Source: Diprion similis
Lineage: Eukaryota; Arthropoda; Insecta; Hymenoptera; Diprionidae
Direction of reading: 5' to 3'
DNA length: 64,000 nt
Assembly (NCBI RefSeq): GCF_021155765.1
Contig: NC_060112.1
Coordinates: forward strand, 25,944,001-26,008,000
Shown: positions 12,131 to 45,000 of the stretch, piece after piece
Layout: each line of letters starts with the position of its first letter
Position numbering within the stretch: position 1 is the stretch's first letter
Position numbers and translations under genes: made by a program
The notes under the pieces: generated by a model
What the model was told of the DNA's origin: nothing
The model's input: the letters and a program-made list of their open reading frames with translations, nothing else
Databases searched by the model: none

Positions 12131-12760
12131 AAAAGTACTTCTGCCTAAAATTAAAGCCTGCTGCTGCTGCTGCATAAGGTTCAGTAACAGAGGTGTAAGT
12201 TGACGATGATTGCAAAATCCAAAGCAGAGTTGGAGGGATGTTGGAGGGATGGACCAGATCATATGGGAGGAAGTGAAGGTAAACACGCCGGAGCCAATCC
12301 GCCAGCGAAAGGGTGGTTCGCCTGGGAATTCCCCCAGACTTTTGATTGCCGCGGGAAAAACGGCGGGACGAACCAGACAAGGATTGGTCGATCTCGGGGG
12401 CCAATTCTTCGGGACTTCGGTGGAGGTATCGAAAATTACACGCGCAGGATCGGTGCCTTGACACGGCGATGATACCCTCGGATTTAACTTAATGTCGTCG
12501 AGTCGAGCGGCGGAAGCTGAAAGTCGAAGAACAGAGCGAAATATTTATAATACAATAGATCTCTCGTTTCGTTATCATACTGTCGGTCTTGCAGACGATA
12601 CTCATTTCAGAAAGTGCTGTGAGTACAAAAGTTTGTCTCCTTTTTCCGTCTATATAATGAGTCAAAATTCCCGTTCTTACAACAAACGCAGTGAATAAGT
12701 CTAACTGTATAAAGAGACAAAAACTATAAACATTTACCGAAGTGTATTCTAACGATGTGC
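12131..12760 (+). promoter_or_regulatory. GC-richer island, candidate promoter/5' UTR exon of Dmrt93B
   Basis: Composition switches abruptly from AT-rich to GC-rich at about 12,150-12,480. The island has a CTG/CAG run near 12,155-12,172 and splice-donor-like sites such as GAAG|GTAAAC at 12,280 and GCT|GTGAGT near 12,619. The first coding exon of Dmrt93B begins one base after an acceptor (TTTAATTCACAG, ending 13044), so an upstream untranslated exon is expected and this island is a candidate. A frame starting at 12492 (MSSSRAAEAE) cannot be spliced in phase at the 12,619 donor without making a stop, so I treat it as non-coding. Confidence 0.35.
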
Positions 12761-13045: not shown

Positions 13046-15906
13046 ATGCTCCGTGGCAAGACGAAACGTCTTGACGAAGAGACGTGCGATTCTGAAAATA
13101 AGCAGAGGAGACCTAAATGCGCCCGGTGCAGAAACCATGGATTGATATCCTGGCTTCGGGGTCACAAACGTGAATGTCGTTATCGGGAGTGCGTGTGTCC
13201 AAAATGCGCCCTGATTGCCGAAAGGCAACGAGTGATGGCTGCCCAGGTATTTCGCTTTTCCGTTTCTCTGCCATATAAGTACAGCGTTAACGTTTGCTCG
13301 CAAGTAGATTCTGCACCGATTTTTACCGTCATTAAAAAATCAGACGGCCGATCAGACATTTTACGTTGATTCCTGTAGAAATTTTCCATTCCATTTCAAA
13401 ACAGGACAGGCTTGTGTACGCGGTAAAGCTTTGAAAGCATCTGAAGAGCTTGTCAGAAAGTTGAGAGTTGAATCCATTAAGCGTGGTGTAGCATTTCGTA
13501 GGAATATTACACTGCGTGTCAGTCAGGGGTTTGTGTACCGATAACATTACGACGATACTTGATACTGGATCAACAGATAGACGCGTGAATTATGAAAGGT
13601 TGGATGCAGGAGTTTCACTCGGCCAGGTTATTGATACTATTTAACTGGTATACTGCGCCAATTCTCATCCTACTATTAGCTCTCATTTATATTGCACCCT
13701 GCTTTTCAAAACGTTCACAGATATCGTTTACAACTAACACGATGTTATCAATGCCTGTTTGACATTTCTGCAACTTTCGAAGTTCGAATTCGGTTTCAAG
13801 AGGGGGGGGGGGGGGGGGTGTTACAGCTTGGATGATCTAAAATCATACCTATTTTTAGGAGTTTTTTTTTTCAAAAAAATAGAAACACTTAGAGAAATTT
13901 GAATTTGAGGGCTGTATTATTTTTAGTTTTAAGAACATTCTTGAATTTTTTCATTCAAATTAATAACAAAATGGCAGCATGGCACACATAAGTAGCGAGC
14001 GACAACGTTTTCAATCCGGTGGCGCAGAATCCTCGGTCAATTTTTATCCAATCAACTTGAAATTTTCACACAATCTTTAAAACTTGTTTATCGATTCGAA
14101 CTCGTGGTTAGATTGTTCGAAAATTCAATTTCTTGTTCTTAATCGTATATATATTTGAAAAGGAATTTTTTTTTAACATTCGGTCTACAAGCTCTACTCA
14201 AAAAGGTCTTTTTAACTCAAAAAATTTATTCTATCTGTTACAAGTTGGACAGTGATGTCAGGAGATGTACCACCGCAAAAGCCATCGAGTTCGGCGCCGT
14301 TCACTACTTATATCCGCTATGGTTCCATTTTGTTATTAATTTCAATGAAAAAATTCTAAGATGTTCTTGAAACTATAAATAATAAAACTTTCGAACTCAA
14401 ATTGCTCAAAGTATTTTCATTTTCTTTAAAAAAAAATCTCCTAAAAATAGGTATGATTTTACACCGTCCAAGCTGTACCCCCCTTAAATGTATTTAAAGA
14501 ATCGGTCGTGTGTTCTTGTACAAAATGGTCACTACACGTAACAATTACAAACAAGCTTTCGAATTTGTTAGTAAAAAATGTTTGCTAGGTTGGATTTTTG
14601 GAAAATAAAATAAGTTATTGTTTGCAAAGCTGCCAATCTCTAAGGCATTCACTTTTATTTTGTCAATTGTATGAATAAGCAATTGATAGAGTTGCACGGA
14701 TTACGTGCAATGTAATGAGTTATGAGAAAAATAAAATTAATAATCTCAGAGCTTTATTGGCGAATGTATGTTTGAATGAAGGTAGCGCTGAAGCGACAAC
14801 AGGCAGCGGAGGACGCCATCGCGCTGAGCATGGCGAAGGTGGCAACGGGTCAGAAACTGAACCGTCTCCCGCCGGGAAAAATATTTGGAATGGCTGTGAC
14901 GGAGCCTGATGCTACGGACTCGATATCGAACAGCAATTCTATCGTGTCCAGTAACGGAGCAGAGAAAGACAGAAGTCGTCAGAACGCCATAGAAAGTACA
15001 GAGAGAAAGACGAGCCCTACGGAAGAACCTGCAGGCCAGTGTGGAGTCCTTCCAACCATCGGCGAGAAGTTAGTAACGAAAGCTTCGCGGTCTTCGAGTA
15101 CCTCGGAATTAGTCTGCCCTGAAGTTGGCTCTCCGTCTGTTGGCGAACGTTCGAATTCACAGCGGTACAGAACGCTGCTGTTCAACGTAAACAAAACGCA
15201 CGGAATTGAGAGGAATGACACAATGGATAATTCGGGGAAGAAGCTGGAGGATGGAAATGATTCGGGATCCATTGTTTCTCAGGCGTCCGTTCAGACTCTC
15301 GCCAATTTATTCCCCAGCACAAAGCTCTCGGTATTGCAGTTGGTGCTTCAGCGATGTGGCCAGGACCTGTTAAAGGCCATCGAGTACTTTGCCGCCCAAA
15401 CGGCTCTCGGGGCTGGCACCGCTTCCGGTTCCGCTTTCAGGCCCGTGCAGAACCTTAACGGCGGTATTAATCAGCCCACGCAAAGCGTCACTCTGCAGGG
15501 AATCCAAGGCGTGAACCACGGCCTTCAGGGCAACGTGCAGCAGCAGACGCCCCCGGAAGTCCCGAATTTCTTCGCCTTTCCGCCGACGTACTCGAGCTTT
15601 CCCCGAAATATTTATGGCGATAGTTACTGTCTGCTCAATATCGTGCCGGAACAGTTGCAGCCGAAGAGCTCGGGTGCGGAAACGGCGAACTTGACCCTCG
15701 CTAAAACCGGAAGTCCGCAGGAGGATAGCGTTGCGCTTAACGTTCAGTACAACAACTACTTCAATTCCAATATTCAGCACCTTCGAGAACACATGTGCAA
15801 TCAAATGATCGACCCCCACAGACAAGGCCTGCTTCACCTACCTCCGATTTTACCCGGAATACCTTGCGTGCAACCCAACTGTGCGCAGTGCTGCAAATTC
15901 CCATGA
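13046..15906 (+). CDS. Dmrt93B: Dmrt93B-like DM-domain transcription factor
   Basis: Two coding exons, 13046-13246 and 14782-15906 (TGA stop? no: TGA at 15904-15906), give 441 aa; the 1.5-kb intron is GT-AG, phase 0. The DM zinc-binding domain fills residues 21-67, with C25, C28, H40, C44 as one expected site and H31, C49, C51, C54 as the other. It runs straight into the recognition helix [19 protein letters not shown] across the splice junction. LPPGKIFGM follows, typical of the Dmrt93B branch. A DMA domain ([20 protein letters not shown]) lies near residues 250-270. DM proteins bind DNA in the minor groove and act in sex-related and neural development; the specific role here is inferred. 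The start is the first ATG after an acceptor, so upstream exons are probably untranslated. The intron carries a foldback element. Confidence 0.87.
13800..14483. mobile_element. Foldback (MITE-like) element in the Dmrt93B intron
   Basis: Nearly the whole 684-bp segment is an inverted repeat. The left end begins with a run of 17-18 G, then TACAGCTTGGATG and AAATCATACCTATTTTTAGG. The right end carries the complement, CCTAAAAATAGGTATGATTT, then CCAAGCTGTACCCCCC. Similarity continues inward through GAACATTCTTGAATTTTTTCA versus its counterpart near 14340-14365, and the ATAAGTAG motif near the centre of each arm. The right end abuts TTAA (14484-14487) and the left end TCAA (13796-13799), possibly a decayed TTAA target duplication. 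No transposase is encoded, so it is non-autonomous. Arms diverge moderately, so it is older than the element at 57.7 kb. Confidence 0.75.
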
Positions 15907-24676: not shown

Positions 24677-25754
24677 TATAGTACCGCAGTGTGATTTAAA
24701 TTATAATTATATGATATTATAATTGTGAGATATATGACAATACTTTAAAATGTGCACATCATGTACTTAAGCTAGAAGATATTTTCTAAAAGATTTCACA
24801 CTGATCAAAATGATTCGAAGAAAAAGTTTCACAGACTTCATCTATAGGTTCTGGACATTTAGTCAAATTTGTAAAAAGTTAGTGATTATTCGATTTGAGT
24901 AGGCATACATTGAAACGATTTTTTTCCGTTTTTTTTTAGCGAAAATTCCTCCCATCACAACAGGAAAAGTAAATAGTGTTCAGGTGTAGAAAATAGTAAG
25001 TTTGCCCAATCGACATCTTGAAAACATTAACTTTACTCTGATTATCGATGCACGCAAAATCGTGAGTCACTTGTCTAGTCAAAAAAAACTATATTTGATT
25101 TTTAATCAGAGATAGTATGACTGCCACACCAGTTGTGAAAACCGGTTGTGTGATGCTAAACATTAGAATAGGAATATGAATTTGGATAGCAAATATCTGT
25201 TGAACAGTGAATTATGAATTATCTTGAGAAGATTATCGTTACTTAAGAACCGTGTTATTATGCATCATTACAATTAAGAATAAAAAATTGAATTTTTTGT
25301 ATAATACATCATTTTTATGAAAATCGTACAAGCCTTTACTCCATTAATATCAAAATTCGATCACGAGGATATTAACAGCGCTTTCCGTCCGACATCCAGC
25401 TGACGAACTCGCCAACACCCTAATGACCTTTCGGCAACACCATAATTCCGAAAAATCTCAACCAAACTCGGGATACAAAATTTCTAAAAATCCAGTTTAC
25501 GACGCGCAATGGCCAGCACTAGAGTGAATTAAAAAATTAATCGACCTGCCGTAACACCGATCTCGATACGCTGCGCACTACGTGATGTAATACACGCAAG
25601 ATTACGCGACAATTGATCCGTCGTCGATTTCGTAGATCATGCAACTCGATGATTATTCTTGACGATTATTATCTCTAAATTCCTAAGTTTGGGTTCCGCC
25701 TAGAGTTCAGAGAGCCGTTTGTCATGCGCATTAAAAATGCCACGTTACAGTAAG
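24677..25754. other. Intergenic sequence after ICMT
   Basis: No gene recognised. AATAAA at 25279-25284 is the first good poly(A) hexamer after the ICMT stop, implying a 3' UTR of about 600 bp if used. Confidence 0.4.
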
Positions 25755-25911
25755 AACATGTTACTCAAATTCAATTGGAATTCAATCTATTTCGTAAATA
25801 TATGCTAGTTTTCATTTAACATTTAAATGTTTATGTAATGCTACCGCGCCATATTATTCCGATATAGTTATGTGCAACTGATGTAGCAGTGGTTTGATCT
25901 TATCTAACTTA

Positions 25912-25945
<34 letters not shown>

Positions 25946-26295
25946 AATGCATTAAAATGCATTAATTTAAAAGTTGCACAAAACGTTGATTGACAATCAG
26001 TAAACTGATCGAGGTTTTTTCATTAGGTACATTTATTCAGCACCGTAGAATAGTTTGTTGTAGTGAGAAATTATTTTCGCGACACGGATGTGAATCTTTC
26101 GAGTACAGAAACAGTGAATTGAGTTGAAAGATGTCAAGGTACTCATGGTATCCCGAAATACAAACAACAGGCGTGTATAAAATTCTAACACTGGATTCAG
26201 TGCATCCATGATACGAGGGCGAGATCCATTTCGTACTCTTGCCGGTGAATATGCGTACATCGCGTTAAAGTGTGTCGTCGGGTAATTTGTTACTG
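25755..26295. repeat. Dispersed repeat, copy A (partner at 33365-33949)
   Basis: This segment is closely similar, in the same orientation, to 33365-33949 inside a perlecan intron. Shared landmarks include GTTTTCATTTAACATTTAAATG, GTAATGCTACCGCGCCATA, GCAGTGGTTTGATC and the long stretch 26,040-26,295 around GATGTGAATCTTTCGAGTACA. An AAC microsatellite (25913-25943) in copy A corresponds to an AAT run in copy B. The shared open frame on the minus strand ([20 protein letters not shown]) has no known domain; its conservation may only reflect recent copying. Confidence 0.8.
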
Positions 26296-26297
26296 GC

Positions 26298-26387
26298 CCT
26301 GACAAACTCCTCCATTGCTTCACGAGTTTTCCGCGCAAGTTTCACAGGTGGTAGTGCCGACTGTACACTACCGTATCTGTCGATTCG
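26298..26387 (-). pseudogene. Chimeric fragment of perlecan exons
   Basis: Bases 26298-26361 match perlecan exon sequence 34993-35056 (EGF module after LG1) at 62 of 64 positions. After a 3-nt gap, 26365-26385 is identical over 21 nt to perlecan exon 42802-42822 (laminin EGF). The two exon pieces, 7.7 kb apart in the gene, are adjacent here, in the same order and orientation, and directly follow repeat copy A. There is no splice site, start or longer frame, so this is a dead fragment. Confidence 0.8.
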
Positions 26388-26395
26388 ACGAAAGT

Positions 26396-27835
26396 ACATT
26401 CTAAGACAGGCTTCCAATATCAAGCACTATCTTTTCTAGATTTTCTCTCCTTTTTCTTTACATCAATATTTACGAGTCAAAATTCAAATGCGGAAAAAAG
26501 TTTGCTGAAACTGCGTCTTCATAGATAGTCTATACAGGGTGCTTCTTTTTAATCGTCGCAGGTCGATTACTCCGACATTGAGCAACAAACGGACAAATGT
26601 TTCGCATAAACTATTCAAAGTCCGAAAGGAGAAAGAACACGACAGCATCGGATGTTTTGTGAATGAAGCTACCAATTTCAGCTGAAGGTCAACTCGGTTT
26701 TCGTCAAATTTAACACTGCATTTTATCTATTGTCATCTGAAAGAGCATCAAATTCATCATCAAAGAGCATCAACGTACTTAGCACCGAAATTCGACCGGT
26801 GATGAGACACGAGCCGGTCAAGTTGCCACGGAACAATTAGGTACCGGTAACTCGTCGGTTCCCTGTAAATACAAACAAATCAATGTCTTGTCTTACCCAA
26901 CTTTTTATAAACAACTGCCGCGGATTTAAGGTAGTTGCGAATGACTTGTTCGCGGTCGTTAGAGTCAGTAAGTTGTCATCTTTATTTTTGATGGTCGACT
27001 ATATACAACACTTGCCGTGTTTGAACCTTCAATATTTCGTACGAAACATTTTCTTCGTATCTTGCTTATTTTCGGAGTAATCGGCCTCGGGCGATTCAAA
27101 TAAAATACTTTGTATCAGCTGTTGCCTAATGAAGATAAGAACGAGCTTGAATAATATTCCGTATACAAACTTTTTCCTATTTTCGTCATTGATACGATTC
27201 TTTAAGGTCACGTGTCCCGGCTTCTTGACCCAAGATAGTATATGTATACTTCTTTCGTTTCATCGGCTTTGGAATGATTTTTCTGCTAGGATAAATGCAG
27301 CGCTATACTTCTTCGGTAACTGTATTCACTTTCGATAAACTTGACTTACTTATAGATAGATTTTTTGAACCGTTACCAGAGAATCCAGAACAGTGTTAAG
27401 TTGATTCGAAAAGAAAGAAAGCCGAAAAAACAGTTTTCCCGCCATTCCTTACATTGGATAAGTAGGTTTTTATGAGGAAGAAAGAAAGATATAAACAAAA
27501 TTAGCCATTCCTACGTGGCGCAGTATAGATTGAAAAGTCGAATAAGTTATTCGACATTCGAGTCGAGACTCACTGAAGCAAAGGGTCCATATTCCGATTG
27601 GAAATATTCCTATTTGATGAGTGATACATGGTTCATACCAGTATCGACAAGTCTGCTTAGGATACGATATCTTTTAACATGCACACCAATATTTTACAAT
27701 CGGGATAAAATATTTCTAACGGAACTCATAATGTTTAGCAAAATTATATTTATTGTCTCATTTGATGTCGGAAATTATTATATATTTATTTATACCTAGA
27801 TATATATTATATGTATGTTAATATTTATTATTATC

Positions 27836-27882
<47 letters not shown>

Positions 27883-29719
27883 TAATAATAATAATAATAT
27901 GTAACAGTACTTTCAAACATTGCCATAGTAATTGATATTTACGTACTTTCTTACAGTTCACGGTTATACGGTACGATACACGTCAGATTGAGATTTATTT
28001 CGGGCGTTGTTGGTTCGTCATTCGTCGTCACCCGTCGAAGGCATCATATCAGATAATGTGATTTTGGGAGTAAAGTTGCTTTCGCTTGTAGCGCAACAAC
28101 TGAATAACCGAGCAAACTCTGTGAAACGACAAAGAATGGAAGAAGAATTGTCCGGCGTAAAGATAATCCCTTTGAAACTTCGATAAATTGCTCTGTTATT
28201 CATTTGTGTACGGAGAGAAAATTTATGCCTACTGTTGAAGTATAACTTGTATAATTTCATCTGCCGTCCGATTTGATTCTTACATCGTGTAATTGTCGGT
28301 TGCACAAACCGCGTACATCTAATTCATTGGTACTAACCGGGAAATGGGGAAGGAAGCGGAAGACTCGTTTCCCCGTGTCTCAGTTCTGAGTTCGAGTGAT
28401 TTCGTTGATCAACACGGTAGCACAAATGGATAAGGTTCAGGTCGATGTAAAAAGCGAGAGATCGAGGTAAGAATTCTAGCTACATGAAAAAGTACGTGAT
28501 GCGCATTGCCTATAATAAATGACGGCTCGTTAGCGCCTGTTTCACAAGTGAAAAAATATAATTATGCGACGCTGCGTATACTCGGAGCTTATTGAAAGCT
28601 GTTGTAATCTGTCAGCGTCACGACGTATCCTTAATCCGTAAACTTACTACTCGATAATAGTAACAACATCTGCACGTAGCACCAAGCTAATTCAGTCCCG
28701 CGATTTTTTTAACAAAAACTTTGCCGATTTGTATCAGGCGTTTCATGCGGTAACCAGTAATTAAACAACTAAATACCATTCATTATTTCATGATTTCACT
28801 TCCGAACCATATCAATTATCGCATCGCGCTGTTATACGACTGCACGAGGTTCACAAATTATTCCCACAACAAGATTAGTTTTCAAAGTTACACTTCTGTA
28901 CGGTTTTCTTGAAGTTCGTCAGGTGAAATAATTGAAGTCAGCGTTGGCATGACACGATTACAGATTACACTTGGTCGCTTAGAAGCACGCTATCCTTGGT
29001 AAAGCTGTTGTATGACATACAGTGGAAATGCGTCAAGTTGAACGAAAATGAAAACGCAATCGGTAACCGAATAGTACTATTACGTCGTAAACAAGATGGT
29101 ACAAAAAGACTATAATAATACAAAATTACAATGCTATAGGTATATGGTATTACATTAGTATAACTATATACATGTCGTACATGCAAGTATCGTGTATGTG
29201 TGTATAAAGCCTTCATTTATATTTATTTGTTTCTTAACACTAACTGATCTTCGCTCCTCGAGAGCAAGAGAATCCGAATCAGTTTCTTCCCTTCGCCACG
29301 TAGAAGACGAATACCACGAATATTCTTTCGCTTCTCATACGGTTTCTCGACTCACACCTTGCGACTCGGAGTTCGGATCCTTCGGCTCTCAATCACGAAG
29401 ACTTACTTTCATTCATCTTTGGACGCGAACTTTTAGATATCACCTCTTTTCGGAACGCTGTCAGGATCGCTGAAAAATGAGTAATTCGGAAAATGATGAG
29501 ACCGAAGACACCTTCACGCAACGATAATCTAGTCCATAATTGTACGTAGCGATATTCCGGGAATTACCTCAGTCTAATCTTGCAGCTCCAGCCACGAGTG
29601 AAGCATTAAATCGTGAGGAAATTTATTTAGTTATTGACAATATTAGGATCAAGGTCCAAGTTGCACATTCCTCGACTTTGGAATTTCGAAAAACGTGCAA
29701 CCTATAGGGGAATCTATAA
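26396..29719. other. Gene-poor region downstream of perlecan
   Basis: Holds an AAT microsatellite (27834-27899) and no recognised gene. Open frames at 27515-27799 (+) and 28018-28305 (-) show no domain. At 28426-28466 a short + frame starts with a good context (CACAAATGG), reads MDKVQVDVKSERS and runs into a strong donor (GAG|GTAAGA). It could be a first coding exon, but I find no partner exon. Candidate minus-strand poly(A) signals for perlecan are TTTATT (AATAAA on the minus strand) at 29622 and 29222. Confidence 0.4.
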
Positions 29720-30005
29720 TTACTGGCACTGAGATTCGATTTCGTAAAATGGTCTAACGTTAACGGGAGTAACAAGCGCATTTCGAAACAACGTAACGAC
29801 AAGTCTGCGCAGCAATCTCACGTCCATTGCGAACAGAATCAGGTTCTGGGCAAATATGAGTAAATTGAGATTTCGAGAATGGACGGAAGCCACGTTAAAG
29901 CTCGGCTTTGGGTGGATGATATTTACGGGCGGCGGTGGTACGAAGGCATCGAATATGTCCGCGTCGGCGTCCGTGAACACCAGGGAAGAGGGAATCCACC
30001 TTGCT
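29720..30005 (-). CDS. trol: Candidate last exon of perlecan (alternative ends possible)
   Basis: LG3 ends at a strong donor (CCAG|GTGAGC at 30100/30099). Skipping it would give a stop one codon later (PCTR, stop). The next acceptor, CTATAG ending 30006, joins in frame to [20 protein letters not shown] and then FVPPPPVN. Reading through gives a stop at 29720, and AATAAA (minus strand) follows at 29622. The distal 50 residues look non-coding, so a splice at 29926 (CCGCCC|GTAAAT) to an exon near 29473 is an alternative ending shortly after. Confidence 0.45.
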
Positions 30006-33000
30006 CTATAGGCAGCGTGTAAAAGATGGACGAACTGTATGAGCCTCGGTGAAAACGGGGCCGTTTCTCTCGCCGTCGAACGGCCGAAAATGGGCTCACC
30101 TGGTACACGGGTAAACGTTTATCCCCCTGATAGCCAAGTCGCCGATGTATATCGCCCCCGAATCCTGGACCTCGAGGGTGTAGATGCACCCGGAGAACCC
30201 CTCCCGGTACCGGCCGAAGCTCATCATGTAGTCCGGCAGGCCTCCGAGATAAACGCTGCCTCTGGCGTTGAGGAGCTGCTGAAGACCTTCGCTCGCCCCG
30301 CTTTCCGTGTGCTCGCCGTTCAGCTCGATGCTGCCTTCGCTACCCTGACGCTTCAGGACGATCCTGTGACGTTCCCCGTCGTCCACCCGCTGGGCCGTCA
30401 CCCTGATCACCGCGGGTCCCGAGCCCAGGTTGTACTGGTACTCGACGTACCTGAAATCGAAGGGAATTAGTCGCAGCCTTGCTCGGCGTCGACTTTCGTC
30501 CGGGTTTCGTCGACGGACGTGTCGACAGCTGGTAACCGAAACAGGGTAACTCGCGGTTTTCAGAAATTGACCGGATTTAGCCTGCAAGCCGGAGAACAGT
30601 GGGATATACTCTTTTGGTTCTCAGCTCTCGACGTGTATCCGACTGTTTGACGAAATTTGGAAGATACATAAAACACTAGTCGTACTCCTCGTTGTGAGTA
30701 TTCTGGTTACTTTTACGTCATTCGAGAAGTTACAGAGATTTTATAAATATTTACGGAGTTTTAGAAAAATTCACGGAGAATGACGAAATTTAGATTCTTC
30801 TTTCGGAGCGTTCGAATCAGTTAAGATGTCCGATTTCATAAAATTTCAACCAAGTGAAGTATGTACGAGTCTGTAAGAGGTTTGCGGGCATTTTTCACAC
30901 GTTTCTGAAAAAGAGTATCGACAATGTTCTTCCAGTAGGAAGTGTTGCCGGAAATTACCCGTCGACTACAGCAAGAGATATGAAATCATCGGCGCTGAGA
31001 TCCTTCGGAGTCTGTCCGTGCCACATGATCAAGCCGTTGCTTTTGTTCGTGGAGATTTCGAATCCCAGGACTTCCTTCTCTTCTTCGTGCGTCATCAACG
31101 ATCTCTCGAGTTCGAGCCATCCGTCGCCGCGGAAAGCCACGTCCGATGCTATTTCAACGGCTGAAAGAACGATGGTTTTGTAACGGCGAAGCCAGTACTG
31201 CCAGCATCGGTTGTTCAAACGTGAACACATAAATAAATAAATAAATAAATAAATAAATATGCGACAATGTACTCACGAATTTCGCATCTGAGTCCGTTGA
31301 AACCGAGCAGGCAGTCGCATTTGAATCCCCCGGGAAGATCGGTGCATATTCCCTTGTTTGTGCAGGGTTTCAGCAATTCGCACTGCTTCAAAACGTTCTC
31401 GCAGTTCCTACCAACGTATCCGTATTCGCAGACGCAGGAATAGTCGAGGTTCTCCGTCACTTGACAAGCTCCGTGAACGCACGGATTCGAGACGCAGGGA
31501 TTGAACTGCGTCGTTGACGGCGAGGTTGGCGGCCTTGTTGGAGCCGGCGTCGTTTCGTAAGGCGGGAAATCGGTATGATTTGAATATTTCCCCACGCAAT
31601 CTTGGATGTTGGACGATTCGATGACTGACTTGAGGATGTCGATGTTTTGCCCCGCGACGTCGAACTGTTATCGAAACATTTCACGTTATTCGTTGTTCAC
31701 GTCATTCGTTATCGGCGGAAGTACCTTGCTTATGCAGCCCCGGAAGTTCTCGACGATTCCCACGTTCCTGTTGACCGTAACCCTGCGGCTGTTCACCCCG
31801 CCGATGTACAACAGAGTGTCGAGGTTCATGGTTTTCGAAGAACCGGGCGACCTTCCTTCCACTTGGGCCTCTCCGTTCACGGACAATTTTCCTTCTTTGA
31901 AATCTCTGCTCGCCCTCACGTGGAGCCACGTTCCTGGTTGCACAACGTGGTTCGATCTTACGACCGCCATTCCTGAGCCCAAGTCGAATCGCAACTCCAC
32001 GTGTCTGTCCTTTATCACGAGGGCGATAAAGTCGCCCAGACCTTCGTTGTTCTGAGCACAGTACATCAGAATTCCGTCGCCCGAGTCCGATGGTTTAAAT
32101 GTCATAGCTAGTTTAATCCTGAGATATGCGGGGTACAAATGTCAATTAGTAAAACAGTGATTTCAGTCTAATACAGTGAATTTTTTGAAATGGATCAATC
32201 ACGAGTGTGTATGTGTATGTGTGTAAAGTACTTCGGACTTTTGCAACTGTTTTTCGTTTCTTTTTACAGTACAAGCCGAAATTCCATCTTGAATCATTGA
32301 TTTTAGATGTCATACTCACGTTATGCTTGCCGGGACGATGTGAATATTCGAGGCATCCCTTTCAATATTACATTCATCAGATTCGCACAAGCACTCAATG
32401 GCAATGAAAAATGTTACCCAAGTTCTAAGGGAAGTTGGTAAGGCGATAGTGAAGCAGAACTCAAAAATGTTCAACTGTGAGGATAGGAAAGCAGGCAGCA
32501 AGCTATTTAAACTGTACAAAGTGAATTACTTTTAATACTCGTATGTATATATTTGCTGGCGTCTCCCTCCGCGAAGGGCAGTTTTCTTGCTACACATTTG
32601 AAACTGGTTTGGTCTTCGCATTCATTTCTTATCTATCTAGAATATAATAGAACCTCGAGTTCGCCAAATTGTGAAAAAGTGAACGTGAACGATTACTAGT
32701 TTCGTAAGATAAGACATTGCGTTACATCGCGTAGCTCGCGTTTGTGCAGAACGATGTATGCCAAGATGGAAGAAAGTGTGATTGAAAGCAATATAACCGC
32801 CATAATTTGTGCCTGGCGTGATTCGAACCAAGTGCTGTCATTTCTCGTCGTCCGATCGCTCGAAGCTTGGTTTCTCGTAATAAGTTTTATCCAGTCACAC
32901 GTAATTATACGCTGACAGAGATATTCACCAACCAACGAATATGAAGTGTTCGGAATTATGCTACAGCTTCGCCGGGAGATTTTGTTACGAGGCCGATTCT

Positions 33001-36000
33001 AACTTCTCCGACAGCTTCGAAAACGGGCACTCAGCAGAAGCAACAAACCAGAGTTCAACCAGGATAAATTTATTCTAAACAACTGATGTATAGAATAAAC
33101 CAAATTCAACAAAAAAAAAAAAAAAAAACGAACAAACAAATGAAACAACAAAATCAAAATACGTCAACTTGTCACATGAATTTTTATTTTGCTCGTAGAT
33201 TATTTCTGTGCATGTATAGATGTATGTATTGTAAAGTAGGCTTGGCCGAGTGAGTATATATGTATATATATATATATAGATATTTTTGAATTCATTTCAA
33301 TGCGTCAACAAGTATATATATTTATATATATTTTATACATGTAGATTCTTATGCATATAAGTACAAACATATTATTCAAATTCAATTTGACTCAATTTAC
33401 TTCGTAAATGTAAGCTAGTTTTCATTTAACATTTAAATGCTCATGTAATGCTACCGCGCCATACTATTACAGTTTTTCAATCACTAAGCCTCGTACGATG
33501 TAGTTAAATGCAACTGGTGTGGCAGTGGTTTGATCGTGTCTAACTTAAAAAGAAAACAATAATAATAATAATAATAAGAATAACAGAAGTAAGTAGCTTA
33601 CAGCGACGCGTTAAATGCATTAATTAGAAAGCTGTACAAAATATTATTTATTAATTAGTAAACTGACCGAAGATTTTTTATTACATTTATTCAGCACCGT
33701 ATAATAGTTTTTTGTAGTGAGAAATTGATTTCGCGACACGGATGTGAATCTTTCGAGTACAGAAACAGTTAATTGAGTTGAAAGATGTCAAGGTACTCAT
33801 GGTCTCCCGAAGTACAAACAACAGGCGTGTATAAAATTCTAACACTGGATTCAGTGCATCCACGATACGAGGGCGAGATCCATTTCGTACTCTTGCCGGT
33901 GAATACGCGTACATCGCGTTAAAGTGTGTCGTCGGGTAATTTGTTACTGCAACCAAATATTTTCTGTACTGCTAGTTTCGTGTGCGTCGGATTGGTGTCA
34001 ATTTCACAATTTAGTGTGTCGCTTTAGTTGGTTGTGGTGTTGATGAGCACGTGGTCGGGTTCTGATTTTTTTGAATGAGCGTGTTCGCAACTTGGACCCA
34101 TATTTTTTAGTTGGGAATCTTTTACCATTCCTGAAAATAATTTTAGCTAGTTAGGTTCATGTCACGATATTATTTGGAAGAATTTCGACAGCGAACAAAT
34201 CGGACGATGTTACGATTGTTTTTTAATCTTAGCTGAACATTGTTGTTGGATTGGGTGCAATTTTTTCACCTGATCAATATTGTTTATCGAAAGTCGTCGA
34301 GATCTCCCGTCATCTTCGAATCCGGAATGATTGAACAATTTGCGACTTCATTAATCAAGTACGTGTTGTGAATGGATTTTAAGTTATGTTAAAGATTCGT
34401 AAAAAAATATAAAATAATAAAATCAATGCGATAAAAAGGCCTGGCACACCCTGTTAAAGATGTAGCAAAAAGCAAAAAATCAGAATAGAAATTAACGGTG
34501 GATTGCTGTCTAAGCGGCATAATAGAATCGAAAAATAATGTAAATCAAAATGTACATTCAATCAAAATATAGGGGATTTCCACACTGTTTTAAACTCAGT
34601 TATTCTTGTGCACAAACGTATACTTACTTTCGTAGTGCCTTGGGCGTTCGGTATGCTAAATATGCATTCCTATCCAAGAACGCTGGCTCTTCAACGCTCA
34701 CGTCTAATTCGCATTTGAGACCACCCTTGTCGATAGGACAGTCACAAGTGAAGCCATCTCCTAGATCGTTGCACGTACCGTTACCGCAGGCACCTGGGAG
34801 GAAAAGATTCACACGGGATGATGGAGTTTGCCGATATAAAAATTCGGCACTGACTCATACACAGCAAATGTAGAAACGATATGGATTCCTGGTTCCACTT
34901 ACCTGGATAACATGCCTGCCCAACGTTGTCGCAGCGGTTTCCGGTGTATCCTGCAGGGCAGAGGCACCTGTATCCTTCCTCGGTGGCGGCTTCCTGACAA
35001 ACTCCTCCATTGCTGCACGAGTTTTCGGCGCAAGTTTCACAGGTGGTAGTGCCGACACTTTCCAACTGGTCGGTGATTAAGTTAAGTTCGTTTGATCCGA
35101 CGACCAGCCTACTGACGCAACCCACAAAGCCGGAGGATGCCGCTTCTTGCGGGTTAATACTTGAGTAATCGGGAACACCTCCTACGTACAATGGCTCCTT
35201 CAAATCCAACGTTTGTAGCCTGCCCGGAGCGGTACCTGAGTAGGGACTTTGCGGATCGCCGACTACCGTCATTCTTCCCTCTTTACGGTTACGATGGAGC
35301 TTAATTGTGTGCCATTTTCCGAGCGTGACGGGAGTTCGTGCCCGGATCACGGCTTGACGAAATCCGAGGTTGAACCTATGCAACGCGAATAATTGAATAA
35401 AGATGGTCACTGGGTTGCGAATTCTGGGCTTCGTAATCGGAAACAAAACCGATCCAAGCTTGATGAAACGTTACGACTGTATACCTGAATTCCGGATATC
35501 CTCCAATGAGGGATAGAGCAATGAAATCTCCACCGCCGTCGCTCCTCTCACCGTTGTAGAGAATAAGACCGTCGTACATTTCAGGCCTGAACGATACTTC
35601 GATATCGAATTCGTAAGCTGCATCTTGCAGGGGCGGGAAGGATATGTAACTCTCGGGAGCCTGACTGAAGTAAGGCACCACGCCAGTCACAACCAGGGTT
35701 TGCAGTACTTCCACGCTCCTTTGGCCGTTGCTCGCGGTACAGATATACGTGCCCGCATCTTCGGCATTCACGTCCAGCAGTTTTATTTCACTCTGATGAA
35801 AAGTATAAAGTGCTCCGTCAGACTTACCCGCCTTGGCATTATTGGACTAGTCTCACTAATCATCATCAGCTATTTTATACGTACGTCCTGTATTCTACTG
35901 TGGTTCGGCAAAAGTCCTCCAAGCTTAGCCCACTTGAATGTAACCGGAGGTTCTATGTCAACCTTGCAATTCATCGAAAATACCGCTCCATACGGTACAG

Positions 36001-39000
36001 GATTCGTTTGTACAGCTGGCGCATCATTGTTCCCACCTGGTTTAGTTATCAACTCATGATACAGATATTCAAGTAAACAGGAAGGCAAAGTTCGGAAACA
36101 TCTTATCAGATATTTAAGATCGAGCACTGCGACGTTTGTGACATAAGAATGTAATCGGTGTCTTCGAGAGCGTGACAAGATCGATTTTACTCACCCAGTG
36201 AAAATCCGTTAGCAGAGACAGAAAAATATGAGCGACCCTGTTAGTAGGTTTCGTAAACTGGACATGTCTTGTCCCATGAGTGAATTTTTGCACAGTAGAA
36301 TTGATAAAAAAAAGTTTCGTGAATTTACGCTACCTTCAATTATAAGATTGTAGTCCGTTTCGGTGCTCGCTTCTCTCGTTTCGGCTATACAACGATAAAC
36401 TCCGCTGTCACCGTACCCGACATTCGTGAGTCTCAGCACGGATCCGACCGCTCTTGCATTTGGCGGCAGTGATGAGTACGTAGGTCGGGTCCATCGGAAG
36501 CGTACGTCTTGGCCTCCGAAGCTTTCACACCGTAAATCGACGTTATCTCCAATATTAACGAGGTCACTAGAAGCTCGTATGCGGAGGGAGATCTGTGGTG
36601 CTTCAGCTAGGTATTCAGAAGTTCGTTAGTTATGACGCACAACGTTGGGCAGAAAATCTGTTTGTCCATGAACTTAAGAGAATCTGCCAGAATCTACTGA
36701 TGTAGATTTTGGTAACACTTTAGACAAAACCTTTTTAGACTTTTGGGGCTGTTTTCGCCACCAATTCGTGTAATAGTAAGTCTGAGTTGCACAATTTTCG
36801 GAATGGACTAATAGATTTCTGTCTTCAATCGTCACGTATGGATACATAAAGTTGAGACAATGAGACCTGCCATGACATGTGAGGTAAGATGCGAGTGGAT
36901 AAAAAAAGCAGTACAAAGGATGCAGAAAAAGTGCAGCAGAGCATGTTTGACAATCGGAAATAGGAATTCCGATTTATCTGTGATGAACAGAACGTGTATG
37001 TATCGCGATTTATAATGTCATGTCTTTTTTCAGATTTTAGTCAACTACTTCTGAATTCTACTACGACAGCGTTCCGGATTGCCGAGCAGATGCTACCGTC
37101 TAAATTTTTCAGTGAATCCGTTGTACAGCTCGTAGAATAATTAGCGGTCTTAAGATTGCACAAGTGTGACGTAACAATAACAAACACGAAAGAATAGCTT
37201 GCTAAGAGGCGAGTGAGTGTCTGATTAAGCTGGAAAAAATGTTAAGATTCGACCACGGACGTCACGGACAAACATATCTGTGAACAAACCGCGTTGCCAT
37301 GGTGGATAGTGGCGATATTGTCTGTTATTGCAGAATCGCTCGTCGCTCCCGTCCGGGCAGTCGATGAAGCCGTCGCAGAGATACTGCTTGTCAATGCATT
37401 CGCTGCTTCTGCATTGGATTTCGGTACCGCTGCACAACGCTCCGTAAACTGGCATGCAATCCGTAAGCAAATTAACTACTAAATTATAATACGAAATGTG
37501 TTGAGGTTTTTAATCTCGGACGCCCTTGGGGTAACTATGGTTGTATGATTTTGTAGTATGATCAGCTGAAACCACTCACAAATACGAGTATGTTAAAGAA
37601 ATAATAAGCTTATTGGCTGATTGATTATGTTGGTTAATGCATGAAATCTTTAGAGAATAACGTAATAAGCATCAGAAGTTTTTTCTACTTTTTTTGATAG
37701 GTTGTAGCGATTTTCATTCCCTGTTAAGAGAGAAAATAACGATAGATACAAGCACTGAATCAGCTACAAATTATAGATTTCTAAATCATATACATGGTTG
37801 TTTATCAGCCTTTTTTTATTTGACTCAGCAGAGTTCACTAAATCAAGGGTTCGGTGGGCAGTACGCAACAAATGACCCTGTAATTCGCTTTCGAATGAAG
37901 GTATCATAGCGATGGCATTTAAGGCAACCCGTAACAAATATTTCCAATATTGGGGAAAGTACGGTTTATTGAACCATCAAATCAATTGGTTATTCTACAA
38001 GAAAGTGATAATGATAGTGCGCACCGATTTGAAAAGTAATGTTTCGCAAGAAAGCAATTCAAATCCTTACATGGTTAAGCTATGTATTCAGAGTATTAAA
38101 CACGCAGCCAATCCATTATAGAAAATGCACACTTCTCCGGAAGGATTATGGTAACAAACAACCGGAACGGGCTACTATTAGTGATTACGATAAAAAAATT
38201 GCAAGGTTACGGTTATCAAGGGATCGTAGTGTGATTTGTGTAACAGAGATGATGAATTGTCTCAAAAAACGGCCGTGTTTCGATTTGAAGTCAGACGAAA
38301 TCTGGATCTGGTGATGAATACTCACATTCGACTCGTAGATTGATGTAATTCTCGCTACTGACTCCGTAAGCATCAGTGACCCGACATACGTATCTTCCGC
38401 TGTCTTCCACCCTAACTTGAGGCAGGTCCAGATAATTTTCGCGTCTGTACGAGTTGGCCGGAAGAACTGATCCTTCCCTCCTCCATTCCACACGTGATCG
38501 ACTCTGGAATGGGGGACAATCGAGGCGTACGTTACTGCCAACCGCTGCAGAAATGTCTCGCTGGTTACTCGTGATGGGAGGCCCGAACTCTGGAACAAAA
38601 GATATGCAAATGTAAGCAAGAGGAAAACAAATTTATCCAGACCCACCAGGGGTGGAATTATGATTTGTACCTGCAGTGACTGAAACTTCGGCGACTGCCT
38701 CGGCACTTCCAGCATTATTTGTTGCTGTGCAAACATATTTTCCAGCGTCATCAAAGGTGATACCGCGGAATTGGAGGACTCCATCAATCTGACTGACTCG
38801 GTTCGAAAAACTCTTCTCAATGGCTTGCCACATGACGGTGATGGGCTGATCTCCAGTAGCAGTGCAATTTACGTACGGGCTGTCACCTGGCCTGACAGTC
38901 TGTCGGATCGGGTCCAACACGATTCTTGGTGGAGCTAAGCAACACGAGTAAAAATTTATATCATCATTGTTTCAACACTGGGGTCAATTTTTGGTTAAAA

Positions 39001-42000
39001 AGATGACGACAATGTGACCACCTGCATGCACACGAGTTGTCCGACAACTTACTAATGATTTCCAAATACGTCTTTGCTCTGAATTCGATAATTCCGGTGT
39101 TGCTCGTTCCTTGGCATACGTATTCTCCAGCTGCTTCGCTCGTCATAAGAGGTATACTCAGAGTGCCGTCACGCACGCTGCTTCCTTCTGGTAAACTTCT
39201 GCCATCACTCCTCTGCCAGTCGAGATAAAGCTTTCGGTCGCCATTAAATATCTGACAGCGTATCTGAGCTCGTCCACCGACGGGAATCTTCATTTTCTCG
39301 CCAGGAATCTCGACGGGGCGGGACTATTTCAAAATAATCCGATCATTTTGCGCAATAACTTTTTCATACTCCGTAGAATTCATAGTCGTACATTAGAGGT
39401 TGGACGGCAGTTTGTTTTCCAACTGGCGCACGTTTTAAAATAGTGAACGAAACTTACCGGGCCGGGTAGCGGTGGGACTGGTCCATTGTCTTTTACAATG
39501 AGTTCGATGCGTTCTTCAGCTATACCCTCGCCATTTGACGCAGTGCACGTGTAGATGCCCTCATCTCCGAAGGAAACTGAGCTTATTTCATGAACAGCAT
39601 CGTACGAGAGGGTTCTGGGGAGCTCCGGACTATAGAAGTAGGCAGAAAAAGTTACTCTTAGCATTTGTTTGCGTAATAAAGGGGAAATCCGATCTGAGAC
39701 TCGACTACTAATAAAATAATAACATACGCAAGTCACTGCGCCGTGAGGACTTCTGTGAGAGAGTACTTATTCAACAAGAAGCATTACGCCACAGATTTAG
39801 AAAATATACATCACGATAGAGCTCCTTATTATGCCGAAAATCCTAAGTTATTTCGTGACTGAGGTTTCACGTTTGAATGAGAATATCAACCCGTTAGGGA
39901 AAACCATAGTCCAAAGCTAATGTTCCTTGGTTTGGTGGGACGTTTTTGAAAGAAGACCCGATTGTCACAAATTAAACTATGACAGTACACTATTAAATTG
40001 GCTCCTTTGTAGAAATCATTGAACGCGATGACAATATAATTTCGCTGTGGACCGTAGAGTATTTGGGGAATTCTCTTCTCTTCGTAGGTCGTACTATACT
40101 GAGCATTCATAGAATAATCACGGTAGACTTACTATCCGGGGCCCTTGTTCCATTCGACCGTGGGCTGCGGATGGCCGGTAGCGCTGCAGGTGAGCCGCAC
40201 TCTCTGGCCAACTTCGACTGTCAGAGGAGTTCGATTGGATGGTGTGATTGTGATGACAGGCTGCGAGTTAATTTCAAGGACGGCAATTATAGAGGTCGAG
40301 CCGACCGCGTTTGACGCCGAACAAGTGAAGCTCCCGCCGTCTTCCAGAGTAACGTTGCTGAATCTTAGCACGCCAGACGAAAGCTGCTCTACGTTCGAGC
40401 TGAACGGTCTGCCATCCTCTCGAGCCCAGATGAGGTCTGGTGTCGGAATTCCCTTTTCAGCACGGCATGCAAACATTGCTGACCCGCCGACGAGAACGCG
40501 TTGCCTCTTCTCTGGGTACAGGGCTACGACTGGCGCCTCTCGAGCTGAAAAAGCGAGATAATACAATAATCGCACGGAGGTTTGTAATCCATTTTGCTTC
40601 ACGTAATGATTCCAGTTGCCTCAAACGATTCCGTGTGATCGTGCACTCACGTTCTACTTCAACCACAGCGCTTCCCTGCGAACTTCCTCCACTGTTGGTA
40701 GCTTGGCAGACGTAAATTCCTCGATCCGAAACGCTCGGTTTAAGGATCCTGAGCGTACTTCCGATAACTTGAATGTGAGCACCAAGAGGTTCTCCACGTT
40801 TCGTCCACGTAACAGAAGGCGCAGGGCTACCTGTCACGACACACTTGACTTCAGCTACTGTTCCTTGGAAGACGGTCTGCCTCGCTGGCTCAATTGTGAC
40901 GGTCGGAGGTCCGTTAGACGCTTGGATTGATATTCTCGCGTTGTTGGAAGTCGTTACTCCTTGGAAGGTGGTCGCCGTGCACACGTATATGCCGGAATCG
41001 GAAGGACTAGGATTGTAGATCGTCAGAACTCCATCTCGTGCGGTAGCAGAATCTGGCAATGGTAGGTTTCCAGCTCTGGTCCAAGTGACTGTGGCGTCAG
41101 GCGTTGCGGTGCACCTCAGTTCAACAAGTTCAGTGGGTCCACCTACCCATTCGACAGGGTCGATAATCGGTCGGTCCACTTGTGGCGGGTTAGGGCGTTC
41201 TGTGGTTAGGCAGAGAAGAAAATATTTACCTCTTCAATGTACAAACTTTCACGAGGATTGCAATTTCTCGATGATAATGTAATCTCTATTTACCAGTGAT
41301 GTAGAGAATCGTTCGTTGTTCGGTGGTACCGGCACTGTTTCGCGCGATACACTTGTACTCATCTTCGTCGCTTAATCTGGCGGAGGGTAGTCTCCAAATA
41401 CCATTTTCAAAGGTTGCGCTGGGATTCATTTCACCTCGGACACGAATCCATGATAGTTCCGGCTGTGGGACACCCGATGAGTCACAACGGAATTCGACGG
41501 GATTTCCTTCTTCGACCGTTAAGTAATTTGGCACGATTGTTATTGTCGGTTTCGAACCTACGACTCCTGAAGAAAAAATTTTTTTCATTGCATTAAATGA
41601 GACTCAGCAGTCAAATTCTTTACGTGACATTAAATTCTTTTCGCGAGAAGAAAAATGTTAATTCTGCGAGTACGAGTTACGAAACCGTCCGTATCCTACA
41701 TTTTTTGATACGTAATAATTCTACGTGACTGCAGCTTCTACGATGCGGATAACTTTTACGAAACATAAGTCACAGAAATACCTTTTCTCCGTAGCAGACT
41801 ATTCCGAAATGCTGCATCCGAGAGAAAATCGATGTCACTCAATAACGTGTTATTTCAGTCAAATATCAAGTAAAAATACATCATTGTGATTAAAGAGTTT
41901 TTCCACAAGCTAGCTCACCTTCAACAGTCAGAGAGACGGTCTCGGTGGCTAAATTGATTCCGTCGCTGACTTGGCAAACGTATACACCGCTGTCGGAGAT

Positions 42001-45000
42001 CTTGACGTCTCTGATAACGAGAACACCACGGGTGTCATCGTAGCTTCGACCAGGCGGCAATTCACCTCCCTGCTTCCGCCACTCGATGTCGATTGCGTCC
42101 TGTTCGATTGAAGAAAAACTTCAGTGCGATTCCGTCATCGGAATAATTTTAATACTCATTACAGCTACGACAATTTAGGCAAAAAATTACGCAGCAGGTA
42201 CTCACGCTGTCCTGTGACCTTCCGGAGCAGTAATATCTGACTGTGGTGCCAGCCTCGACGATTTCAAGGCCGGTCTGACGGATCGTGACGATGATTCTCG
42301 GCGGGGGATTCGTCGGCAAAGGCGTGGGCTCCGTGGGTTCGGGGACTAAAACGTGATTGAGTCAAATTTGTTCACCCAGTCCGTCGCTTCGATTTAGTAT
42401 TTTTCATGTACATCGTTACTCGTCAATATGTCTGTTCAATTTTATGATCAAGCAAATGCATTCATATACGTTGTGACTCAAGTGAAGTGAAAGTGATTTT
42501 AAAAATTGCGTATTGTGGAATTCTTGCAAAGTCGTTATACGAGTGTTCTTCGCCGTGGAAGATCTAGAACCACAGTGGCAGTGAAATTATTTAGTATCTT
42601 CCACATACCGATAACCTAGTGCATGCTATAATCGAACGCCCATGATCTCACGGACATTTTATAGTAGAAATGTGTTGCATTTCCGATTTACGAATCTGCG
42701 ATTCAAGGTGGAATCCACGATCGTTATACAATGAATACGCAATCTACTTACCGTCGTATTCGCAGGATGGTCCACTGAATTCCGGCCGGCAGTAACATTT
42801 AACACTACCGTATCTGTCGATTTCGCAGCTTTCTTCGTTTCCATTGCACGGGCAAAGGTTGCAGGCTCCTAGAATACTGCGAGATCTGTCAAACTCGTTC
42901 CTGTAATATCCAGGGGCGCAGCTTTCGCAGGAACTTCCTGTGTATCCCGACGGGCATCGACAGGCTTCGACTTGAGTAGCGCGTCTGCTTGATGCCACGT
43001 GTTGCACAGCTGTGTCGAGACTGACGTCGCTGATGTAAGTTGCAATCATTTCCTGACTGTGCGTTGCACGAACCAGGATAGCCTCCAAGTTTGCAAGGAC
43101 GGTCATGAGGTCTACACGAGAAGCGCTGCGCGGACCATCCGTCGTCAGTCGTTTCCATGCTGATTCAACTAACGGCACGCTGTACGTCTGTGAACGAAGT
43201 TTATTGCAGAAATTTATGAAAACCTTGAAAAATTTCACCCTTTCTAGTCTAATTAATGCTGCTACGCCAGCTGAAAATATACGATGACGATACACACCAG
43301 CGAGTAGTCTGATTCGATTTCTTCAGGATTGACCCAGAAGAGAGTTATGCCGTTACCGGTAAGAACAACATCTTGATCTTTGTTAATCGGTGCACCGGGA
43401 CGGGCTACGATTCGCTGTGTCAAAATTAGATTTCCACCATAGCTCTTTATCTGGTTACCCGTTATGGAAGATGGCAATGACCAGTAAAGTCGCTGGCTAC
43501 GAGAGTCCAGATATCGGTAACCAATCTCATTTCTAGAAGTTTGAACTTCGAATCCTTCCGTTATCACATGGCTTCGTCCGCTGTCGACAGATAAACTAGA
43601 TACATTTTGTTCGAAATATAAAAAACATAGATCAGTAATTACGTTGCAGCCTATGCCAATTTCACTCCGTGCATTTCGAGTTGAGTTTGATAATTGAAGT
43701 TCAAACCTTCGTTTATAGAATTCTATATTTGCTAAGGAAACCAAAAAAAAAGAAGCTTGGCACCATAACGGATTGAGAATAAAATCTTACGAGTCTGTGA
43801 GAGTGAATCCGTGATTGGCATCAAGAATAGGCATTGGCCTCTGAGTAACATAAAGAGAGCTTTCGTGACACTCCTGGGTCACTCCGCTACAGAAACATTC
43901 ATTGCAACCATCTGGGTTATTGGTGGACAGTCCGAAAGTCGATGCACGGCAGCGATCACATTTTGGACCCACGACGTTAGGCTTACACCGACACTGTTCG
44001 TTGTAACAATTAGTTCCAAGAGATCCTGCAGGGTTACAATCGCACGACGGATTTGTTGCGTTTCCGGGTGGTGTGTATCTTGGCCGACAATCTTCAGGAG
44101 TTCCGCGAGTTGCATCGCCTTCATAACCATATTCGCAGGATTCGCATTTTTCTCCGGTTGTATGGTCACGACAATACTGGAATGGACGAAAGAAAACCGC
44201 TATATTTCAGACGCGTCGAAAGCAAATGAAACGTAAGTTACTCCAGCAGTGTTCGAGATCTGGCCAGAATGGACATGTCTGGTTATCATAGGGGTTACGT
44301 TATATTATTCCAACAAACCTCGCAGACTCCGGTTTCTGGATGGCACTGGGTTGCGTGTCCGTTGCATTCGCAGGGCTCACACAAACCGAGATACAATCCC
44401 TCACCAGCTCTGGTGTATCCGACGTCACAGTCCTCGCAAGACAAGCCTTTGTATCCGAAGGGGCAGGTACACTGTTCAACTTCAACCGCACGTGCTCTGC
44501 CGTTGTTTATGCTCACCGCGGTATCCAGATATACGGATGAGAGTCTGTAAGGTTGTCACGTCAGAGATTTTTCCAAGCGTTTGAGACTTTTTTTTCTGAT
44601 CGAGGTTATCCTACTCCTTAATACTTACGCGGCTTCATCGGTATGTGTGGTGTACGTTGCCTTAATGCGGATCGCCTGTACGTCAGCTAACGCCATAAGA
44701 AGATTCTCTCGATTAACGGTAGTTCCATCGATTCGCTGCCAATGATCCTCGTGTATCGGCACTGTGAATGTCACCGAATCATTCGGCTCTACTTGTACCG
44801 AAGAATAATATCGAAGTTCGATATCGTTTGACTGAAAAAATCATGTGGTCGAGATGTCATTACAAAAATGTTGCATACAAAGCGAACAAACTTATCAAAT
44901 CAGTGAAAATTTGTGTGTTTTAGTCTCGTGAAAGGCAACGTAAATAGTCATGTTGCTTACACTAATCAGTTCGACATCGGCAGCATTGTTTCTGGATCTT

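Follow-up and report, generated by a model that had tools for sequence, protein, structure and literature searches.

How did three separate pieces of the Diprion similis perlecan gene come to lie side by side, in their original order, in the DNA past the 3′ end of that gene? Template-switching repair, which can produce such patchworks, has mostly been studied with induced breaks, disease alleles, and cancer. We analyzed a window of 64,000 nucleotides (contig NC_060112.1, positions 25,944,001 to 26,008,000, forward strand), in which all coordinates below are counted from the first base. A preliminary description of this DNA had noted the patchwork and proposed serial template switching during replication, or a tandem duplication followed by large internal deletions, as its origin.

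A mosaic of three perlecan pieces

Perlecan is encoded on the minus strand, and a Pfam search placed laminin G, EGF, laminin B, and laminin EGF domains in open reading frames (ORFs) that hold or lie near the three source segments. The mosaic copy sits between the 3′ end of perlecan and an ICMT-like gene, about 3.7 kb past the last laminin G match (ORF 30096-30620). Aligning 25400-26900 to the whole window with BLASTN confirmed that the mosaic consists of three perlecan pieces with order and orientation kept. Segment 25749-26295 matches 33360-33949 (81.2% identity over 595 columns, E = 9.7e-172), 26298-26361 matches 34993-35056 (62/64 identical, E = 3.6e-25), and 26365-26385 matches 42802-42822 (21/21 identical, E = 1.6e-4). 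All three matches are plus/plus, on the same strand and in the same left-to-right order as their sources. The edges reported earlier were correct to within a few bases, the left one lying at 25749/25750 rather than 25755 and the right one at 26385 rather than 26387. The sources, the two short pieces, and the fillers between pieces are as follows.

33360 to 33949, plus strand: source of piece 1, a perlecan intron (gene on the minus strand)
34993 to 35056, plus strand: source of piece 2, the interior of an exon
42802 to 42822, plus strand: source of piece 3, coding exon sequence
26296 to 26297, plus strand: junction 1 filler, 2 bases
26298 to 26361, plus strand: piece 2, antisense to perlecan; its source exon has laminin G and EGF matches
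26362 to 26364, plus strand: junction 2 filler, 3 bases; ACACT is common to both sources there
26365 to 26385, plus strand: piece 3, antisense to perlecan; its source exon also has a laminin-EGF match

The source classes assigned earlier, intronic for piece 1 and coding exon sequence for pieces 2 and 3, agree with the splice sites that we read by eye from the sequence. The source of piece 1 is the intron after an exon ending near 34628; that of piece 2 lies inside an exon with GTAAGT after its 3′ end, and that of piece 3 is coding sequence some 50 bases ahead of a GTAAGT. A processed retrocopy is not supported: piece 1 is intronic, and pieces 2 and 3 start within coding sequence and end off the GTAAGT donors of their exons. 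Inspected by eye, junction 1 has no clear microhomology; at junction 2, ACACT occurs in both sources, yet the copy has added bases.

Similarity searches of the genome (269 Mb in 60 contigs), which skipped simple repeats and scored only the best candidates, placed pieces 1 and 2 at their source and their copy and nowhere else among those candidates. In one search, the remaining 9 of 12 rows were the end of a flanking repeat, and in a second search the remaining 12 of 15 were short stretches of the source region, judged to be of low complexity by eye. Further similarity searches did not list the 21-base match in either direction and are thus blind to pieces so short. With no more than one mismatch allowed, the 21-mer of piece 3 has exactly two genomic sites, and its reversed control has none. 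To gauge the background, 147 segments, each 171 bases long and drawn from 0.5 to 25.7 kb, were compared with 29.7 to 63.2 kb on both strands, and the sole exact match of at least 21 bases was a poly-A run. Given the two genomic sites and the lack of a comparable background match, a chance origin of piece 3 is very unlikely; the mosaic is real and not the work of chance. Its short pieces are templated from separate nearby sites, as expected of serial template switching, and a single gene accounts for every base of 26075-26385 except five.

A self comparison of the window listed five pairs, of which two are this mosaic and the rest are not multipiece copies. It also listed a direct pair (51685-51779 and 51805-51899, 81% identical) toward the 5′ side of perlecan, within the 5′ half of its region, where the sequence resembles LDL-receptor-type repeats by eye. 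A 186-bp inverted pair (13816-14001 and 14298-14483, 82% identical) next to a DM-domain (DMRT-like) gene may be a fold-back element.

Flanking repeats and the mobile-element or assembly-error explanation

Repeats lie on both sides of the mosaic, as might be expected if a mobile element of the Helitron or Pack type had captured perlecan pieces. The left one adjoins the mosaic directly.

25512 to 25749, strand not assigned: interspersed repeat copy, internally deleted relative to loci L010 and L012; the right end of the family (...GCCACGTTACA) adjoins the mosaic

This repeat returned at least 27 rows in the genome search, the window's own included. Its aligned copies lose similarity at the same bases, and its relatives L010 and L012 have several hundred additional internal bases. 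The right end of the family and the left edge of the mosaic coincide exactly. A search of 23.5 to 26 kb with the first 14 bases of the repeat's end, allowing 4 mismatches, gave no inverted copy, and no second GTAAGAAC was found in 22 to 27.5 kb. The repeat may have inserted into an old duplicate of the intron or may instead mark the site where that duplicate was placed. On the right, roughly 26533-27116 is another interspersed repeat, whose inverted ends match imperfectly (26547-26621 and 27025-27100, 75% identical) and which has copies on several contigs.

A mobile element would be expected to leave several copies that have these junctions in common, but no further mosaic copy was found genome-wide among the best candidates scored, and in the loci compared the neighboring repeats occur elsewhere without a match to the mosaic. 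The copy also carries substitutions of its own. This, together with an assembly that extends into telomere repeats where contig C1 begins, makes an assembly error an unlikely source of the mosaic. The telomere motif there, TTAGG, is consistent with an insect or other arthropod. We regard mobile-element capture or assembly error, taken together, as very improbable.

An identity step inside piece 1

Identity is not uniform along piece 1: it is about 83% on the left and steps up near 26030-26074 to about 98% on the right. The best single split falls after 26074, with 53/320 positions substituted on the left versus 5/221 on the right, and none of 5,000 permutations gave a split as good; the point itself is imprecise and could lie anywhere from about 26029 to 26074. 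With a simple-repeat stretch (25906-26028) masked, the counts are 25/202 versus 5/221, a contrast reached by 4 of 5,000 permutations. All gaps in piece 1 lie left of about 26029. This abrupt change in substitution density indicates that piece 1 contains sequence of two ages, and a sharp identity step between paralogues is what ectopic gene conversion leaves behind.

25750 to 26074, plus strand: old part of piece 1, a duplicate of the perlecan intron from 33361, with 53/320 substitutions and all of the gaps
26075 to 26295, plus strand: young part of piece 1, a putative conversion tract templated by the perlecan intron as far as 33949, with 5/221 substitutions and no gaps

Pieces 2 and 3 together have 2/85 substitutions. 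Fisher tests separate them from the old part (P = 2.6e-4) but not from the young part (P = 1.0), although a total of 85 bp bounds their age only loosely.

Could a single event account for the whole mosaic? Replication-based serial template switching of the FoSTeS/MMBIR type could have laid down all three pieces, with the left part of piece 1 changing faster afterward, in either source or copy. The pieces are collinear, on the same strand, and joined with small fillers, and the left part is AT rich and contains a simple repeat (GC of 0.30 and 0.29 in the left part versus 0.41). However, a single event must accommodate a seven-fold difference in substitutions within one alignment, and the difference persists without the repeat: with 25906-26028 omitted and the split set at 26028, the counts are 21/156 versus 9/267 (Fisher P = 2.5e-4). 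A neutral copy made once should not be 17% diverged in one part and 2% in another unless the source changed very unevenly. We therefore consider the single event unlikely. The serial template switching proposed earlier fits the right part (26030/26075-26385) but, as a single event, leaves the age step in piece 1 unexplained.

Alternatively, both copies could be old, and selection on a functional element, such as regulatory DNA or RNA, could have kept pieces 2 and 3 and the right part of piece 1 alike. The right part is about 97 to 98% identical between copy and source, and it has an open minus-strand frame (102 amino acids in the copy, 94 in the source). Frames 26033-26341 and 33687-33971, both on the minus strand, are common to the copy and its intronic source. 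In the shared frame, however, 7 of 8 changed codons alter the amino acid, and coding, Rfam, and folding tests were all negative. The frame has no Pfam match at E = 0.001, and with its differences mainly amino acid changing, a coding function was rejected. An RNA function was rejected as well, as no Rfam match reached the gathering score in 24 to 36 kb and four RNA folds were no better than shuffled sequences (z from -0.54 to 0.10). Selection on a functional element thus seems to us a very remote explanation; the scar is probably neutral and the locus without function.

Further pieces and the tandem-duplication explanation

A tandem duplication that later lost 1.0 and 7.7 kb through internal deletions would preserve the order and orientation of the pieces. 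Its unit must cover 26386-42822 (16.4 kb by coordinates), so that 26386-33360 should be present a second time, to the left of 25749. The window self comparison (E = 1e-4) detected no such copy there, although a fully deleted one would escape it. Three or more deletions would be needed to reduce the unit to about 0.6 kb, and the age step requires one more event. This second origin offered in the preliminary description is thus poorly supported, and we consider it quite unlikely.

Lenient searches for additional pieces recovered what was already known. A comparison of 24.6 to 29.7 kb with 30 to 64 kb slightly extended two known pieces (piece 1 to 26319 and piece 2 to 26400), and 26361-26532 against the rest of the window returned the 21-mer at E = 0.001. 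Five other matches of that segment were set aside as weak: one to 12632-12670 (77% identity over 44 columns, E = 0.004) and four with E > 0.5. A minus-strand match between 27596-27819 and 33081-33293 (59%), given by the former comparison, was judged by eye to be low complexity and was also set aside. A genome search with 26362-26540 at E up to 10 listed only the segment itself and also missed the known 21-base source, so that short pieces are undetectable by it.

A proposed two-step repair history

We postulate that the mosaic is the scar of a two-step history, in which an old stray duplicate of the perlecan intron was later broken and then repaired from perlecan with two template jumps. On balance we think this history probable, with appreciable room for doubt. 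In the first step, an intron segment (33361 to at least about 33.7 kb) would have been duplicated long ago into the intergenic region past the 3′ end of the gene, the source and the old duplicate having since diverged by about 17%. In the second, a break would have occurred in the old duplicate near 26.03 to 26.07 kb. The left broken end, still some 83% intron-like, could then have invaded the homologous intron as a primer, with rightward synthesis to 33949 (about 220 to 265 bp) before release. A forward jump of 1.0 kb to 34993 would have allowed 64 bp to be copied before a second release, and another of 7.7 kb to 42802 would have added 21 bp. End joining to the right side of the break would complete the repair, with the 2- and 3-base fillers left at junctions 1 and 2. 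The pieces themselves, their order and rarity, the fillers, and the divergence step are observed directly; the break, the strand invasion, the direction of synthesis, and the origin of all young pieces in one event are what we infer from the sequence.

Several features fit this order of events. The high-identity tract adjoins the jump junctions on one side and, on the other, the old duplicate, whose diverged sequence offers a natural homology arm; both jumps run in the same direction. An old duplicate with later repair is preferred over a single event because of the sharp age step inside piece 1.

Other observations count against the two-step history. With the changes unpolarized, uneven change in the source intron could also have produced the step. 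The imprecise split point, the AT-rich left part with its simple repeat, the loosely bounded age of pieces 2 and 3, and the lack of clear microhomology at junction 1 weigh against it as well. In addition, the lenient alignment of piece 2 that reaches 26400 (35092 in the source; 81% over 103 columns, with three gap openings) runs across the place of piece 3, and the extension might represent more of piece 2, since decayed, in place of a separate piece 3. That reading is less likely given the unique 21/21 match of piece 3.

DISCUSSION

The mosaic is well explained by known repair processes. The mechanism itself is not new; what we add is the two-step history, which the preliminary description had missed. 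In the mouse cell experiments described in a 2016 study (PMC5104497), the strand displaced from a conversion tract switches template, and one base is added when it is joined to the second end. As we read it, the mosaic resembles that product in its conversion tract, its jump to another template, and its joining with microhomology or added bases. In contrast, the breaks in PMC5104497 were induced in mouse embryonic stem cells, whereas the mosaic is natural, inherited, deduced from sequence, and shows two forward jumps within one gene. Repeated invasion and displacement in fly gap repair appear among the proposals cited in the discussion of the same paper.

As characterized in PMC5104497 and PMC4056370, FoSTeS/MMBIR resembles the mosaic in its serial short templated pieces from nearby sequence. 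Unlike FoSTeS/MMBIR as portrayed there, the mosaic has a first template homologous to the old duplicate, and its junction 1 has a filler and no clear microhomology. The natural Drosophila copy-number variants treated in PMC4056370 likewise have added bases at their junctions, and complex events occur among them. At those Drosophila breakpoints, 41 of 50 insertions have no genomic match, whereas nearly all of the right part of the mosaic is templated. Homology-based pathways account for a minor part of the fly variants according to PMC4056370, and this counts against the two-step repair reading.

We speculate that about 310 bp of this locus are a germline fossil of one failed ectopic gene conversion, with its homology arm, its conversion tract, two jumps (1.0 and 7.7 kb) within one gene, and end joining; we would put this more specific proposal at even chances. 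A natural example with a visible homology arm ties gene conversion between duplicates to the formation of patchwork sequence. The mosaic could also act as a search template for paralogue pairs in which an identity step ends in a foreign junction. If the proposed history is true, a stray duplicate that is already old can still give rise to fresh mosaic sequence, long after its own formation.
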